Part shown: positions 23,450-29,870 of the stretch, one piece after another
How the letters are laid out: each line of letters starts with the position of its first letter
Position numbering within the stretch: the stretch's first letter is position 1
From: Anaerolineales bacterium
Lineage (GTDB): Bacteria; Chloroflexota; Anaerolineae; Anaerolineales; UBA11579
Assembly (NCBI GenBank): GCA_026129255.1
Contig: JAHCIJ010000001.1
Span: forward strand, 186,001-250,000
Length of the DNA: 64,000 bases
Reading direction: 5' to 3'
Notes under the pieces: model-generated
Told to the model about the DNA's origin: nothing
The model's input: only the letters and a program-made list of their open reading frames with translations
Databases searched by the model: none
Translations under genes and position numbers: made by a program

Positions 23450-25090
23450 ATGCCCCCAGTCCTTGAATTACGCAACATTACGAAACGCTTCCCCGGTGTG
23501 TTGGCCAATGATCACATTGATCTGACACTGAACCGTGGGGAGATCCACGCACTGCTTGGTGAGAACGGTGCGGGCAAAACCACCCTCATGAACATCCTGT
23601 ATGGCCTTTATCAACCTGATGAAGGCGAAATTTTTATCAACGGACAAAAAGCCGAGATTCATTCCCCTACAGATGCCATCAACCTCGGTGTGGGCATGGT
23701 GCACCAGCACTTCATGCTGATCCCGGTGTTCACTGTTACCGAGAATGTGATGTTGGGCTCGGAGAGCCTGCAGCTCGGGGGCGTGCTAGACCGCAAAGCG
23801 GCTGCCGAGCGCATCCGCGAGATCTCTGAAGCCTATGGCCTGGCAGTGAACCCAGACGACCACATCCGTGATCTGCCGGTGGGCGGGCAGCAGCGCGTCG
23901 AGATCATCAAGCTGCTCTACCGCGAGGCGGACATCCTCATTCTGGATGAGCCTACCGCTGTGCTCACTCCGCAAGAGGCCGATGAGCTTTTCAGGATCAT
24001 GCACTCACTCACCGAGCGTGGCAAATCGATCATTTTTATCACTCACAAATTGCGTGAAGTGCTGGATATTGCCGACCGCATCACCGTCATCCGCCGCGGC
24101 AAGGTCGTGGGTTCCACAACGCCCAAGCAGGCCAACCAAAGCAAGCTGGCCGCCATGATGGTGGGGCGTGAGGTGGACCTGAGCGTGCACAAGCGCGCCG
24201 CCAAGCTCGGCGCAGCCGTGCTGCAGGTGCAGGATCTGAAGGTGGCTGATGACCGCGGCCAGCTTGCCGTGGACGGGGTGTCCTTTGCCGTGCAGGCCGG
24301 CGAAGTGCTGGGCATCGCCGGTGTTCAAGGCAATGGCCAGACCGAGCTGGTGGAAGCGCTCACCGGTCTGCGCTCGACGCATGCTGGCAGTATTCGCCTG
24401 CTGGACGAAGACATTACCCGCGCCGACCCGCGCCGCATCACGGAGCTGGGCAGCGCTCACATTCCCGAAGACCGCCAGCGCGATGGCCTGGTGCTCAACT
24501 TCCCGGTAGCGGATAACCTGGTGCTCAATACCTACTATCAGGCGCCTTTCTCTAAAGGTGCTGTGTTGCAGCAAAACACGATCTCAGAAGTCGCCCGCGA
24601 GCGGGTGAGTAAGTTTGATATTCGCACGCCGGGCGTGGAGACGCATGCCAGCTCGCTCTCTGGCGGTAACCAGCAAAAAGTCATCGTGGCGCGCGAGCTT
24701 TCTCGCCCGGTCAAGCTGGTGGTGGCGTCACAGCCCACGCGTGGGCTGGACGTCGGCTCGATCGAGTACATCCATGGCCGTTTGATCGAGAGCCGCGACA
24801 GTGGCGTGGGGGTGCTGCTGGTCTCCTCTGAGTTGGATGAGATCATGCAGCTCTCTGACCGTATCGCCGTGATCTACCGTGGCAAGATCGTAGATGTGCT
24901 GCCAGCCAAGGGCGCCAGCAAGGAAAAAATAGGCTTGTTGATGGCAGGCGTGGTTCAGAAGGGCGCAAAAGCCTCTCCCAAAGTAGCCGCCAAGAAAAAA
25001 GCTGTCACCAAGAAAACGGCTAAGAAGGTGGCCAAGAAGAAGGCTGCTACTAAGACGACCAGACCCACCAAGCGTCGCAAGGACTCCTGA
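23450..25090 (+). CDS. BMP-type nucleoside ABC transporter ATPase with Lys/Ala-rich tail
   Basis: A 546-residue double-ABC ATPase of the sugar/nucleoside type. The first domain has Walker A GENGAGKTT (about residues 40-48), GGQQRVEI and LDEPTAVLTP; the second has the usual degenerate Walker A GVQGNGQTEL, then LSGGNQQKVIVARELSR and SQPTRGLDVG. Up to about residue 500 it is normal. The last ~35 residues are an extension of Lys, Ala and Thr repeats (AAKKKAVTKKTAKKVAKKKA), like the histone-like protein at 36689. It energises the two permeases that follow at 3- and 1-base spacing, so an operon is clear. Confidence 0.93.
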   Translation: MPPVLELRNITKRFPGVLANDHIDLTLNRGEIHALLGENGAGKTTLMNILYGLYQPDEGEIFINGQKAEIHSPTDAINLGVGMVHQHFMLIPVFTVTENVMLGSESLQLGGVLDRKAAAERIREISEAYGLAVNPDDHIRDLPVGGQQRVEIIKLLYREADILILDEPTAVLTPQEADELFRIMHSLTERGKSIIFITHKLREVLDIADRITVIRRGKVVGSTTPKQANQSKLAAMMVGREVDLSVHKRAAKLGAAVLQVQDLKVADDRGQLAVDGVSFAVQAGEVLGIAGVQGNGQTELVEALTGLRSTHAGSIRLLDEDITRADPRRITELGSAHIPEDRQRDGLVLNFPVADNLVLNTYYQAPFSKGAVLQQNTISEVARERVSKFDIRTPGVETHASSLSGGNQQKVIVARELSRPVKLVVASQPTRGLDVGSIEYIHGRLIESRDSGVGVLLVSSELDEIMQLSDRIAVIYRGKIVDVLPAKGASKEKIGLLMAGVVQKGAKASPKVAAKKKAVTKKTAKKVAKKKAATKTTRPTKRRKDS

Positions 25091-25092
25091 GC

Positions 25093-26346
25093 ATGGCCAA
25101 TCAAGATAACGAATCCAAAGCCCCCGCGCAGAAAAAGAGCGCCTTCGGCATTTTTCTTCAGGAGCTCGGCCGCGGTTCAGTGCTTGTGCCCATCCTGGCC
25201 ATCATCACCGGCTTGTTCCTGGGCGGCCTGATCGTCGCCGTCACCACGGAGGCTGTTTACACCACCTGGTCTAGCTCTCCACTGGAAGCCATCAGCAGGG
25301 GCGTGGATGCCGCCTTGCGCTCCTACAGCGCTTTGTTCAATGGCTCCATCGGCAACCCGGAGCGCATTGCGGATGCTTTGGCCAGCGGGGAGGGGGCCGC
25401 GCTGCGGCGTGCCTTCAATCCCTTCCTCGAGAGCCTTACGAAATCGGTACCCTACATCTTTGCTGGCCTGGCGGTAGCCCTCGGCTTCCGCGCCGGCTTG
25501 TTCAACATCGGCGCCGAGGGTCAGCTTTTCATGGGCGCCATCTGCTCGGTCTATGTGGGTTTTGCCCTCACGGGCCTGCCTGCCTTCATCCATTTGCCCC
25601 TGGCGCTGGGGGCCGGAGCGCTGGGCGGTGCGCTATGGGGCTTCATCCCCGGCTTACTTAAAGCCAAGACCGGCGGGCATGAGGTCATCAATACCATCAT
25701 GATGAACTACATCGCCTTCCGGTTGAGCGAGTACCTGCTGCGCGGGCCGTTGCAGCGCCCCGATACTACCAACCCCATCAGCCCTTTTATCGAGACCACG
25801 GCGCAGTTGCCGCGTTTCTTCGATAGCCCCATTCGCTTTCATCTCGGCTTCTTTGTGGCGTTGGCCGCCGCCTACGGTGTGTACTGGCTGCTGTTCAAGA
25901 CCCGCCTGGGTTTTGAGTTGCGCACGGTGGGCGCCAACCCGTCTGCGGCTCGCTATGCGGGCATGAACATTGTGCTGGTCACCGTGCTGGCCATGAGCCT
26001 CTCCGGGGCGCTGGCTGGCCTGGCAGGGGCCAACGAAGTCCTCGGCGTCAACTACACGCTGGCCCCCGCCTTCTCCTCCGGCTATGGCTTTGACAGCATT
26101 GCCCTGGCGCTGATCGGCAAGAGCCATCCGGTGGGCGTGGTGCTGGCGGCGCTGCTGTTCGGTTTCCTGCGCAATGGCGCTTTGCAGATGCAGATCGCGG
26201 CCAATGTCCCGGTGGACATCATTTCGGTGATGCAAGCCCTCATCCTGGCCTTCATCGCCGCCCCGGCGATTATCCGAACCATCTACCGCCTGCGTGCGCC
26301 TGCGCAGCAGGATGACGAGCTGCGTGTGCGCGGCTGGGGAGGTTAG
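25093..26346 (+). CDS. BMP-type nucleoside ABC transporter permease 1
   Basis: A 417-residue membrane protein of the BPD_transp_2 family, with about 9-10 hydrophobic segments. Signatures are AGLAVALGFRAGLFNIGAEG (about residues 120-139) and GGHEVINTIMMNYIA (about residues 195-209), plus ELRTVGANPSAARYAGMNI in the loop that contacts the ATPase. It begins 2 bases after the ATPase stop and its own stop is 1 base before the second permease. Together with that permease it should form the membrane pore of a nucleoside importer. Confidence 0.93.
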   Translation: MANQDNESKAPAQKKSAFGIFLQELGRGSVLVPILAIITGLFLGGLIVAVTTEAVYTTWSSSPLEAISRGVDAALRSYSALFNGSIGNPERIADALASGEGAALRRAFNPFLESLTKSVPYIFAGLAVALGFRAGLFNIGAEGQLFMGAICSVYVGFALTGLPAFIHLPLALGAGALGGALWGFIPGLLKAKTGGHEVINTIMMNYIAFRLSEYLLRGPLQRPDTTNPISPFIETTAQLPRFFDSPIRFHLGFFVALAAAYGVYWLLFKTRLGFELRTVGANPSAARYAGMNIVLVTVLAMSLSGALAGLAGANEVLGVNYTLAPAFSSGYGFDSIALALIGKSHPVGVVLAALLFGFLRNGALQMQIAANVPVDIISVMQALILAFIAAPAIIRTIYRLRAPAQQDDELRVRGWGG

Positions 26347-26347
26347 T

Positions 26348-27622
26348 ATGAGCACCCAAGCTTCCACCATTCAATCTGTGGCTCCCCAAGGAACCGCCAC
26401 CCGGCGCATTGTTATGGGCCTGGTGTTTTTGGGTTTGGCCGCCGCCATCTGGTTCTTGTTCGCCAATACGACCCAGGCTGACCTGGTGACCACCTTCACG
26501 CTCAACCCAGGTGGCAGCCAATTCAACTTCCCCAACCTTGGTTTCACTACTTTGCCTGTGCTGCATGCGCTGGCCTCGGCCTGCGCGCTGATCGGCGCGT
26601 TCCAGCTGGCGCGCGGTTTTGGGCGCAGCACCAACGCTGTGCTGGGTTTGGTGGCGGCGCTGTTCATCTTCGCTTTCCTCTCCTGGGTGGCGTCGGGCAC
26701 TTCGCTCAACCTGGCTGGCTTGCTGCGCGCCACGCTGATCCGCGCCGTGCCGATCACGCTGGGGGCGCTCTCCGGCATCCTGTGTGAGCGCGCTGGGGTG
26801 GTCAACATCGCCATCGAGGGCATGATGCTCACCAGCGCCATGGTGGCGGCCATTTTTGGCAGCCTGTATGGCTTGTGGGTCGGCCTGTTGGCCGGAGTGC
26901 TGGCGGGCGGCTTGCTGGCGGTGGTGCATGCCATCCTCTCCATCAAGTACAAGACGGACCAGATCGTCTCTGGCACCGTGATCAACATCTTTTCGATCGG
27001 CATTACGTCTTTCATCTCAGCCAAGTTTCTGGCCAGTTACCGCTACTTGAATAACCCCGGCATTTTCTCGGACATTCAGATCCCCGGCCTGGTGGATATT
27101 CCCTTCCTCGGCCCGATCCTCTTTTCGCACAACATCTTCTTCTTCGGCATGGTGGTCTTCCTGGTGCTGCTGCACTTCGGCCTGTTCTTCACACGCTGGG
27201 GGCTGCGCCTGCGCTCGGTGGGTGAGCACCCCAAAGCAGCCGACACCCTGGGTATCAACGTCTTCCGCACGCGCTACATGGCCGTGATCCTGGGCGGCAT
27301 GATGGCCGGCTTCGGCGGCGCCTACTTCACCCTTGGGTCCGTGGGCCGCTTCGACGAAGTGATGACCGCCGGCCGCGGTTTCATCGGCCTGGCCGCCATG
27401 ATCTTCGGCAACTGGAATCCTTTTGGCGCTTTTGGCGCCGGCCTGCTGTTTGGCTTCGCCGACATGCTTGCCGCCCGCCTGGCCATCCTGGGTGTGCGCG
27501 TCCCCTCGGAATTTCTGCTGATGGCGCCTTACGTCGCTACGATGATCGTTTTGGCGGGCGTGGTGGGCCGCGGCCAAATGCCCGCCGCCGATGGCCAACC
27601 CTACGAGAAGGAAGGCCATTAA
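26348..27622 (+). CDS. BMP-type nucleoside ABC transporter permease 2
   Basis: A 424-residue membrane protein, the second BPD_transp_2 permease. It is longer than usual at the N-terminus (about 130 residues with several extra hydrophobic segments) before the conserved LGALSGILCERAGVVNIAIE and the EGMMLTSAM segment. RLRSVGEHPKAADTLGINV is the ATPase-contact loop. The ATG at 26348 lies directly after the stop of permease 1 (TAGTATG), implying coupling; an open frame upstream is not needed. The last gene of the importer operon; a hairpin at 27675 follows. Confidence 0.92.
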   Translation: MSTQASTIQSVAPQGTATRRIVMGLVFLGLAAAIWFLFANTTQADLVTTFTLNPGGSQFNFPNLGFTTLPVLHALASACALIGAFQLARGFGRSTNAVLGLVAALFIFAFLSWVASGTSLNLAGLLRATLIRAVPITLGALSGILCERAGVVNIAIEGMMLTSAMVAAIFGSLYGLWVGLLAGVLAGGLLAVVHAILSIKYKTDQIVSGTVINIFSIGITSFISAKFLASYRYLNNPGIFSDIQIPGLVDIPFLGPILFSHNIFFFGMVVFLVLLHFGLFFTRWGLRLRSVGEHPKAADTLGINVFRTRYMAVILGGMMAGFGGAYFTLGSVGRFDEVMTAGRGFIGLAAMIFGNWNPFGAFGAGLLFGFADMLAARLAILGVRVPSEFLLMAPYVATMIVLAGVVGRGQMPAADGQPYEKEGH

Positions 27623-27674: not shown

Positions 27675-27712
27675 ACCATGTGACCAAGTGACTAGTCTCT
27701 TGGTCACATGGT
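27675..27712. terminator. AT-rich hairpin after the bmp operon
   Basis: ACCATGTGACCAAG (27675-27688) pairs perfectly with 27699-27712 across a 10-base loop. It has no T-run. Words such as GACCAAGTGACTA recur in other intergenic hairpins of the window. Confidence 0.55.
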
Positions 27713-27731: not shown

Positions 27732-28109
27732 ATGAAAACACTCTTGCGCATTGAAGAAGCCGCTTTGTTCGCCTTGGCTGTATTTGCCTATGCTGGCACG
27801 GGCGAACCTTGGTGGCTGTTTGCCGTCTTGCTGTTTGCACCAGACCTCTCGGCGATCGGCTATCTGGCCGGGCCGCGCGTCGGCGCCTTCTTCTATAACC
27901 TGTTTCACCACCGTGCGCTGGCGGTGCTGCTGTTTGCGCTCAGCGTACCGATGGACTCCCCTGTTCTGCGTATCGCCGGCATCATTCTCTTCGCCCATGC
28001 CAGCCTGGACCGTGTGCTGGGCTACGGCCTCAAGTACCCTGACTCCTTCCAAAACACACACCTTGGCCGGATCGGGCGCGGTGCCGATGGCCGCAGGGAG
28101 CAGCCATAA
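27732..28109 (+). CDS. DUF4260 membrane protein
   Basis: A 125-residue protein with three or four hydrophobic segments. It begins MKTLLRIEEAALFALAVFAY and contains LFAPDLSAIGYLAGPRVGAF and HASLDRVLGYGLKY, the conserved pattern of DUF4260 (YvlD-like small membrane proteins). The function is unknown. GGAG precedes the ATG. Its stop codon TAA overlaps the presumed ATA start of the ABC-F gene by three bases in an ATAA arrangement, so the two are probably coupled. Confidence 0.85.
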   Translation: MKTLLRIEEAALFALAVFAYAGTGEPWWLFAVLLFAPDLSAIGYLAGPRVGAFFYNLFHHRALAVLLFALSVPMDSPVLRIAGIILFAHASLDRVLGYGLKYPDSFQNTHLGRIGRGADGRREQP

Positions 28110-29755
28110 TCGGTTTCAGCCTGGACCAGGTTACGGTTTCGTACAACGCCCAACCCGTTATCCAGAACCTCTCCTGGGAGATCCATAAAGATCGCTGCGT
28201 AGGCCTGATTGGTATCAACGGCAGCGGCAAGAGCACCTTGCTGCGCCTGATCGCCGGTGAGCTCACCACCGAGACCGGCTATGCCAATATGCGCGGTAAG
28301 CTCACCATCGGCTACTTGCCGCAGGAGCCGCGCTTCGACCCAGAGCACACACTGCTACAAGAAGCGCTCACGGCGCACACGCGCCTGTTCGAGCTGGAGC
28401 GCTCGCTGGCAGTGGTGGAGGAGCAGCTGGGCCAGCCAGATGTCTACAGCGATGAGAAGCGCCTCAGCCGCAAGCTAGAGGAGCATGCCGCGCTGCTGGA
28501 AGAGCACACTCGCATCGGCGGCCCCGGCTACGAGGGCCAGGTGCGCTCCACACTGCTCAGTCTCGGTTTCGCCGAGCATGAGCTGGAGCTGCCGGTCAGC
28601 AACCTCAGCGGCGGGCAGAAGAAGCTGCTCGGCCTCACCAAGCTGCTGGTCACCCGGCCAGACATTTTGCTGCTCGACGAGCCGGACAACCATTTGGATA
28701 TGGACGGCAAGGAATTTCTTGAGCAATACATCCGCAACTACAACGGTGGTGTAGTGCTGATCTCACATGACCGCTTCATGCTGGATGTGGTGGCAGACGA
28801 GATCGCCGAGCTGCGGGATGGCCAGATCACTGTCTACGAGGGCAACTACTCGGAGTACGTGGCGTTCAAAGAAGCCAAGTTGCTGGAGCAGCAGCGCCAA
28901 TTCAAAGTGCAGCAGAACGAGATCAGCCGCCTGGAGCAATCCGCCAAGCGTATGCTGATCTGGGGCCGTTCACACGAGAACGAGAAGCTCATCCGCCGCG
29001 CCAAATCGATGATGAAGCGCATCGAGAAGATGGAGAAGGTGGAGAAGCCCAAAGCCGACCCGCGCTCGATGAATTTACAGCTCAAAGGCTGGCGCGGCAG
29101 CAACAAGGTGCTGGAGCTCACCGGCATCGCCAAGGGCTTTGAGGGCGCCGCTGGCTGGAGCCAGGTGCTGCAAGGGCTGGACCTCACCCTGTGGCACGGC
29201 GAGCGCGTGGGCCTGGTGGGGCCGAATGGCGCCGGCAAGTCGGTGCTCTTCCGCTTGCTGCTTGGGCGCGAGCAGCCCGAAGCGGGCGAGATCAAAATTG
29301 GCCCCAGCATCCAGACCGGCTACTATGCCCAGGAGCATGAGACGCTGGACCACTCGATGAGCCTGATCGAAACCGTGCGCCGCGCCGCCAACCTGTCTGA
29401 GGCCAATGCGGTCAAATTGCTCGACAAGTTTGTCTACGAATACCGGCGCATGAACAACCCGGTGAGCACGCTCTCCGGCGGCGAGCGCAGCCGCTTGCAG
29501 CTTATTCTCATCATGCTCAGCGGCGCCAATTTCCTGCTGCTGGATGAGCCCACCAATAATCTGGATATCCGCTCGGCGGAAGTGCTGGAAGATTCGCTGA
29601 CCGAGTTTGGGGGCAGCGTGCTGGCCATCTCGCATGACCGCTATTTCCTCGACCGGGTGGCAACTCGCATCGTCGAGCTTGAAGACGGCAAACTGGTGGA
29701 ATACCCTGGCGGTTATTCTGACTATCAGGCGGCCAAAGCCAAGCTGGAACTTTAG
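28106..29755 (+). CDS. ABC-F family ATPase, apparent AUA start codon
   Basis: A 549-residue soluble protein with two ABC domains joined by a charged linker (about residues 245-330). Walker A motifs are GINGSGKST (about residue 39) and GPNGAGKS; signatures are LSGGQKKLL and LSGGERSRL; Walker B sites end in LLLDEPDNHLD and LLLDEPTNNLD. ABC-F proteins act on the ribosome. The frame is open back to a stop at 28040, yet no ATG, GTG or TTG exists before the first Walker A; the next TTG (28238) would remove it. ATA at 28106 follows AGGGAG by 5 bases and forms ATAA with the DUF4260 stop. An ancestral or miscalled ATGA is likely. Confidence 0.85.
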   Translation: MIGFSLDQVTVSYNAQPVIQNLSWEIHKDRCVGLIGINGSGKSTLLRLIAGELTTETGYANMRGKLTIGYLPQEPRFDPEHTLLQEALTAHTRLFELERSLAVVEEQLGQPDVYSDEKRLSRKLEEHAALLEEHTRIGGPGYEGQVRSTLLSLGFAEHELELPVSNLSGGQKKLLGLTKLLVTRPDILLLDEPDNHLDMDGKEFLEQYIRNYNGGVVLISHDRFMLDVVADEIAELRDGQITVYEGNYSEYVAFKEAKLLEQQRQFKVQQNEISRLEQSAKRMLIWGRSHENEKLIRRAKSMMKRIEKMEKVEKPKADPRSMNLQLKGWRGSNKVLELTGIAKGFEGAAGWSQVLQGLDLTLWHGERVGLVGPNGAGKSVLFRLLLGREQPEAGEIKIGPSIQTGYYAQEHETLDHSMSLIETVRRAANLSEANAVKLLDKFVYEYRRMNNPVSTLSGGERSRLQLILIMLSGANFLLLDEPTNNLDIRSAEVLEDSLTEFGGSVLAISHDRYFLDRVATRIVELEDGKLVEYPGGYSDYQAAKAKLEL

Positions 29756-29788: not shown

Positions 29789-29870
29789 TCCACAGATGCA
29801 CACAGATGTTACAAAGATGAAACAGATAAATCTGTTTATCAGCAGTTAAGCATCTGTGTTTATCTGTGGA
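29789..29870. repeat. Intergenic inverted repeat (CACAGATG family)
   Basis: Outer arms of 20 bases (29789-29808 and 29851-29870, 18 of 20 matching) contain CCACAGAT and CACAGATG. Inside lies a smaller palindrome, AAACAGAT and its complement. The right arm supplies the last codons and stop of murJ. Confidence 0.75.

Follow-up and report, generated by a model that had tools for sequence, protein, structure and literature searches.

A likely AUA start codon of the IF3-discriminated class in an EttA-like ABC-F gene of an Anaerolineales bacterium

The window analysed here is a stretch of 64,000 nucleotides from the genome of an Anaerolineales bacterium (Chloroflexota). Within it a DUF4260 gene is followed on the same strand by an ABC-F gene (Table 1). 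The two are joined by the sequence ATAA at 28106-28109, where the DUF4260 stop overlaps the proposed ABC-F start in an arrangement of the ATGA coupling type. ABC transporter genes for an ATPase and two permeases (23450-27622), which we take to be nucleoside-type, lie directly upstream of the DUF4260/ABC-F pair, and across most of the genus the nearer permease is the neighbour of this pair. Between this permease gene and DUF4260 is a perfect inverted repeat (27676-27711) with 13-bp arms, CCATGTGACCAAG and CTTGGTCACATGG. It is possibly a terminator or operator, and its arm is unique within a 464-kb sample of the genome. An imperfect inverted repeat (29790-29870; CCACAGATGCACACAGATG ... CATCTGTGTTTATCTGTGG) lies just past the ABC-F stop, and its right arm has one further copy in the same 464-kb sample.

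Table 1. Features of the DUF4260/ABC-F locus, numbered from the first nucleotide of the window.
Feature	Position	Strand	Evidence
DUF4260 gene, 125 aa	27732-28109	+	Pfam PF14079, E 1.4e-45
Upstream in-frame stop (TGA) of the ABC-F frame	28040-28042	+	sequence
AGGGAG as Shine-Dalgarno sequence (-7.2 kcal/mol duplex energy), spaced 5 nt from ATA	28095-28100	+	
ATA, most likely start codon of the ABC-F gene	28106-28108	+	ortholog conservation
ABC-F gene of 549 codons and a stop, encoding an EttA-like ATPase with two domains	28106-29755	+	
TAA stop of the DUF4260 gene, forming ATAA together with the ABC-F start	28107-28109	+	sequence
First Walker A motif, GINGSGKST, upstream of the first canonical start codon	28211-28237	+	
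TTG, first ATG/GTG/TTG codon in the ABC-F frame	28238-28240	+	

The ABC-F product contains two stretches matching PF00005 (ABC_tran) and the linker ABC_tran_Xtn (PF12848; 80.4 bits vs a cut-off of 25.9). With 428.3 bits against a cut-off of 380, it also passed NF000355, the NCBIfam model of ribosomal protection-like ABC-F proteins. Its best solved-structure relatives by sequence were the EttA structures 4fin and 3j5s, and it resembles EttA in having two ATPase domains and the ABC-F linker. However, the product scored far below the EttA equivalog cut-offs, with 398 of 599 bits for NF008775 and 388.4 of 806.75 for TIGR03719. Searching the whole genome (estimated 92% complete) with the PF12848 profile returned one match, this gene, which is thus the only ABC-F that the model detects in the genome. 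Purifying selection acts on the gene: comparison with four relatives gave dN of 0.043-0.048 and dS of 0.65-0.88, a dN/dS of about 0.05-0.07. This ratio and the intact 549 codons leave next to no room for a pseudogene that has lost its start, even though a canonical start is lacking.

According to the original prediction, the ABC-F frame has no standard start codon between its upstream stop and the first Walker A motif, and translation begins instead at an AUA codon that follows AGGGAG by 5 bases and overlaps the TAA stop of the preceding gene. The sequence bore out both the missing start and the described site. From the TGA to the Walker A motif the frame holds zero ATG, GTG or TTG codons. The first such codon, the TTG at 28238, adjoins the 3' end of the motif, and initiation there would thus delete the first ATPase site.

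The start site was then compared across relatives. In a family sample of 24 genomes, a close ABC-F ortholog was present in 16 and its 5' end was readable in 15. Eleven of these 15 carry AUH (ATA, ATC or ATT in the DNA, hereafter ATH) at the start codon, with ATA in seven (G000, G001, G004, G006, G007, G008 and G011), ATC in one (G002) and ATT in three (G009, G010 and G014). The other four orthologs (G005, G012, G017 and G020) have ATG at the homologous codon, and GTG or TTG starts occur in none of the family's 15 readable loci. Outside the family the same codon was ATG at 90 of 92 loci, GTG at one and TTG at one. For this start table the 11 ATH loci were fixed beforehand, whilst at all others the start was set to the closest canonical codon up to 6 codons away. 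Locus L036 and the distant paralogs L028-L031 were excluded, and the N-terminus is missing in L025 (G022) and in L032 (a second G005 piece). Among the 96 canonical loci at least four contigs are doubly counted (L033/L168, L035/L218, L037/L206 and L106/L223), because named and unnamed copies of a contig, recognisable by their equal lengths, were both taken into the table. One of these contigs (L033/L168), counted as ATG, has ATT ATT in tandem four to five codons ahead of the ATG, following a stop, which may be a further AUH start or have arisen by chance. In ABC-F relatives elsewhere (70 loci, mostly Actinomycetota, about 30-40% identity), a canonical codon was absent before residue 24 in 0 of 70, a test weakened by chance upstream codons.

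The surroundings of the codon also point to initiation at this position. In-frame stops lie 1 codon upstream of the ATH codon in G002 and G009, 3 in G014, 5 in G010 and 9 in G011, so no canonical start is available upstream in these five genomes. A chance GTG is found 12 codons upstream of the ATA in G001. Internal GTG codons occur in some loci, for example at 8 and 10 codons in G010, but starting there would cost the protein its first strand. In a sample of this GC-rich genome ATA accounts for only 2.7% of Ile codons, against 21.6% for ATT and 75.7% for ATC, and the mostly-ATA pattern is thus not what ordinary Ile codons show, although in six genomes the codon is under constraint from the overlapping TAA stop as well.

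It is true that a single base, a G at 28108, would restore an ATG start in the common ATGA overlap with a TGA stop, as found in G005, but ATAAT also stands at the site in five other genomes of the genus (G001, G004, G006, G007 and G008), two of them single contigs, and further relatives have ATC or ATT, so that independent assemblies effectively exclude an assembly or sequencing error. The G-to-A change proposed for this base fares accordingly. As a recent mutation it does not hold, since AUH is common to 11 orthologs with protein identity down to 62%. As a possible history for the sub-clade it stands, although the tree leaves it unfixed because neighbouring branches carry ATT and ATC.

A fusion of DUF4260 and ABC-F, produced by frameshifting or stop-codon read-through, would also account for the missing start. 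In the window, 21 open codons precede the ATA in the ABC-F frame, and in G002 the DUF4260 gene shares this frame, separated by a single stop. Against this, frame and distance vary among relatives, five AUH loci have the nearby upstream stops listed above, and no DUF4260 match was found upstream of ABC-F in G010 and G011. We consider such a fusion very improbable.

Shine-Dalgarno strength was estimated as duplex energy against an assumed sequence of the 16S rRNA 3' end. All 11 ATH loci had strong values, from -6.5 to -9.6 kcal/mol (mean -8.1), compared with a mean of -3.2 kcal/mol in the 96 canonical loci (Mann-Whitney p = 2e-7, relatedness ignored). The four family ATG orthologs had energies of 1.3, 2.0, -2.2 and -1.1 kcal/mol. 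In the genome studied here, 49 of 391 gene models reach the -7.2 kcal/mol of the ABC-F gene, a count in which some starts are surely misassigned. In a tree of 29 ABC-F proteins, built without the first three residues, the 11 ATH rows together with G005 and G012 formed one clade (support 90/91), and a minimum of 3 changes between ATH and canonical was required. The simplest reading is one gain of ATH and two reversions, and both apparent reversions lack a strong Shine-Dalgarno sequence. Across the 3 independent contrasts the Shine-Dalgarno sequence changed with the codon in most random pairings, but with so few contrasts a sign test cannot reach significance (p = 0.25). A published trend likewise has non-AUG starts accompanied by stronger Shine-Dalgarno sequences, and the same source gives the switch to AUU as rare, at 1 of 61,358 ancestral AUG starts (PMC5622118).

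The spacing from the Shine-Dalgarno sequence to the ATH codon is 5-9 nt. It bears on whether translation might start at the next codon instead, which is ATC at 28109 in the window. The second codon is Ile, again ATH, in all 11 AUH loci, and the spacing to it would be 8-12 nt. However, in relatives it is the first codon of the pair that is ATG (MI...), with the second Ile absent from G017 and G020, and 5-9 nt suits the first codon better. Initiation at ATC 28109 is thus unlikely, and as it would still be an AUH start it would alter little. The position-exact AUA, AUC or AUU of the relatives and the strong Shine-Dalgarno sequences that accompany it support the predicted AUA start. Most likely, the ABC-F gene does start at AUH and belongs with infC, Streptomyces sigR and staphylococcal ccpN in the IF3-discriminated class.

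We also checked infC, the gene for IF3, in the same family. Of the 24 genomes, 22 yielded IF3, and the infC start was readable in 21, the start in the genome studied here being cut off by a contig end. All 21 readable starts are AUH (ATA in 11, ATC in 7 and ATT in 3), and the third base alternates between A, C and T but is never G (loci L133-L144 and L146-L154). Shine-Dalgarno energies ranged from -7.3 to -9.2 kcal/mol in the 20 measured loci. Eight of these 20 have a canonical codon in frame farther upstream, and the assignment of the start there is thus based on position and the Shine-Dalgarno sequence. infC stays AUH also in the four genomes whose ABC-F gene has AUG. The ABC-F start site thus resembles its infC counterpart in these organisms.

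How rare such starts are within the genome was addressed with a codon-model scan of 464 kb, roughly a fifth of the genome, covering 391 gene models, 131 of which have GTG or TTG starts. Coding signal ahead of the first canonical start was detected in 2 of the 391, the ABC-F gene and one weak-signal frame, at a sensitivity for such genes of 60/391. As the scan is blind to most genes, a comparison of 229 genes with G004 and/or G010 was added. A first criterion flagged 70 of the 229 and was too strict, and a second, anchored on BLAST alignment starts, flagged 23, mostly for conserved upstream DNA. Under a third criterion 10 were left, whilst 185 had an aligned canonical start and 34 had canonical starts in each genome but in different columns, the latter not being proven canonical. 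With the flagged genes judged by eye, the ABC-F gene was the only clear AUH case among the 229. Gene 303 has a TTG or ATG just upstream, gene 326 has an ATG, and genes 96, 330 and 344 have an ATG somewhat further downstream. The frames of genes 104, 127, 289 and 347 look wrong or overlapping. On this sample, AUH starts are not in large-scale use in the lineage, although a few others may be hidden. Of 40 tRNA matches 30 were read, and these gave no sign of a special initiator tRNA: CAT is the anticodon of the Met tRNAs, and TAT was not seen.

The proposed mechanism draws on bacteria other than Chloroflexota, in which AUU, AUC and AUA are discriminated against by IF3 whilst AUG, GUG and UUG escape (PMC4611024). 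The ordinary initiator tRNA would start ABC-F translation at AUA 28106, and the third-position mismatch would place this start in the IF3-discriminated class. The strong Shine-Dalgarno sequence would offset part of the resulting loss, as at infC. ABC-F output would then be low, falling further when IF3 is plentiful and rising when IF3 is short or initiation fidelity is reduced. In the sub-clade with ATAA, the gene would also be placed for translational coupling to DUF4260. We give this explanation as a whole, an IF3-discriminated AUA start compensated by its Shine-Dalgarno sequence, a probability of roughly 0.8. The low efficiency of the start, its control by IF3 and any benefit to the cell are parts that we infer by analogy with known systems.

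Of these systems, infC of the same family is like the ABC-F gene in its AUH start, strong Shine-Dalgarno sequence and conservation in the family. It differs in encoding IF3 itself, so that feedback is direct, whereas some family members lack AUH at the ABC-F gene. Streptomyces sigR also has a conserved non-canonical start and an extended ribosome-binding site, and its GTC start is repressed by IF3, with the third base changed (GTT) in 2 of 34 species (PMC5472188). By contrast with the ABC-F gene, its codons are GTC/GTT rather than AUH, it encodes a sigma factor and the repression by IF3 is experimental (PMC5472188). In staphylococci, ccpN (AUA) and cvfC1 (AUU) combine conserved AUH starts with extended Shine-Dalgarno sequences, and such starts give roughly 10-30% of AUG output (PMC13009471). 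These are other genes in another phylum, and their starts were shown by Ribo-Ret profiling and reporters (PMC13009471).

The original prediction likened the ATAA overlap to the usual ATGA coupling. The likeness is present in the window but is not general. ATAA occurs in 6 of the 11 AUH genomes, namely the genus members with ATA, and not wherever an AUH start occurs; the AUG genome G005 has the overlap as ATGA. DUF4260 ends before the ABC-F start by 3 nt in G002, 14 nt in G009 and 22 nt in G014. As AUH genomes exist without the overlap or without DUF4260, coupling does not explain why the start is AUH, though it may help ABC-F translation in some genomes. In E. coli re-initiation, extra IF3 is described as less inhibitory when a Shine-Dalgarno sequence is present (PMC2268962).

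A serious alternative, to which we give somewhat less than an even chance, is that AUH simply holds ABC-F output at a low, constant level, helped by re-initiation after DUF4260, and that IF3 is not used for regulation. The ATAA overlap in six genomes is consistent with this, and E. coli pcnB has been described as limited by its AUU start. However, AUH is kept without overlap or DUF4260 in G010, G011 and G014, and GTG or TTG, which could also give weak starts, are absent from the family's 15 readable loci although 131 of the 391 gene models of the genome begin with them. The IF3-discriminated explanation also has points against it. AUH is dispensable, as four family orthologs do without it, and the Shine-Dalgarno association is drawn from the 3 independent contrasts.

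The action of ABC-F factors on ribosomes falls at initiation or later, which makes a link between the ABC-F gene and initiation fidelity plausible. EttA, for example, gates entry into elongation (PMC8782954). Speculatively, and we regard this as unlikely, the ABC-F gene could join IF3 in an IF3-gated set of translation-factor genes. A shortage of IF3 or a disturbance of initiation would then open both AUH starts at once and tie the capacity for ribosome rescue to initiation fidelity, and ABC-F might act back on initiation at its own near-cognate start.

We found no earlier report in the open-licence PubMed Central literature of an ABC-F gene whose start is non-canonical or non-AUG. Within that literature, the kind of start is known but the gene and the phylum are new. 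Conserved IF3-discriminated starts are on record for no more than a handful of bacterial genes, and the ABC-F case adds a translation factor, in a phylum without cases in the literature searched. Gene finders limited to ATG, GTG and TTG misplace such starts; as a search cue we suggest AUH codons at homologous start positions that coincide with unusually strong Shine-Dalgarno sequences. Within the family, sister genomes that differ in having AUG or AUH at this gene offer a ready natural comparison. By analogy with the known systems, ABC-F output in the AUH genomes is probably kept low and tied to IF3.
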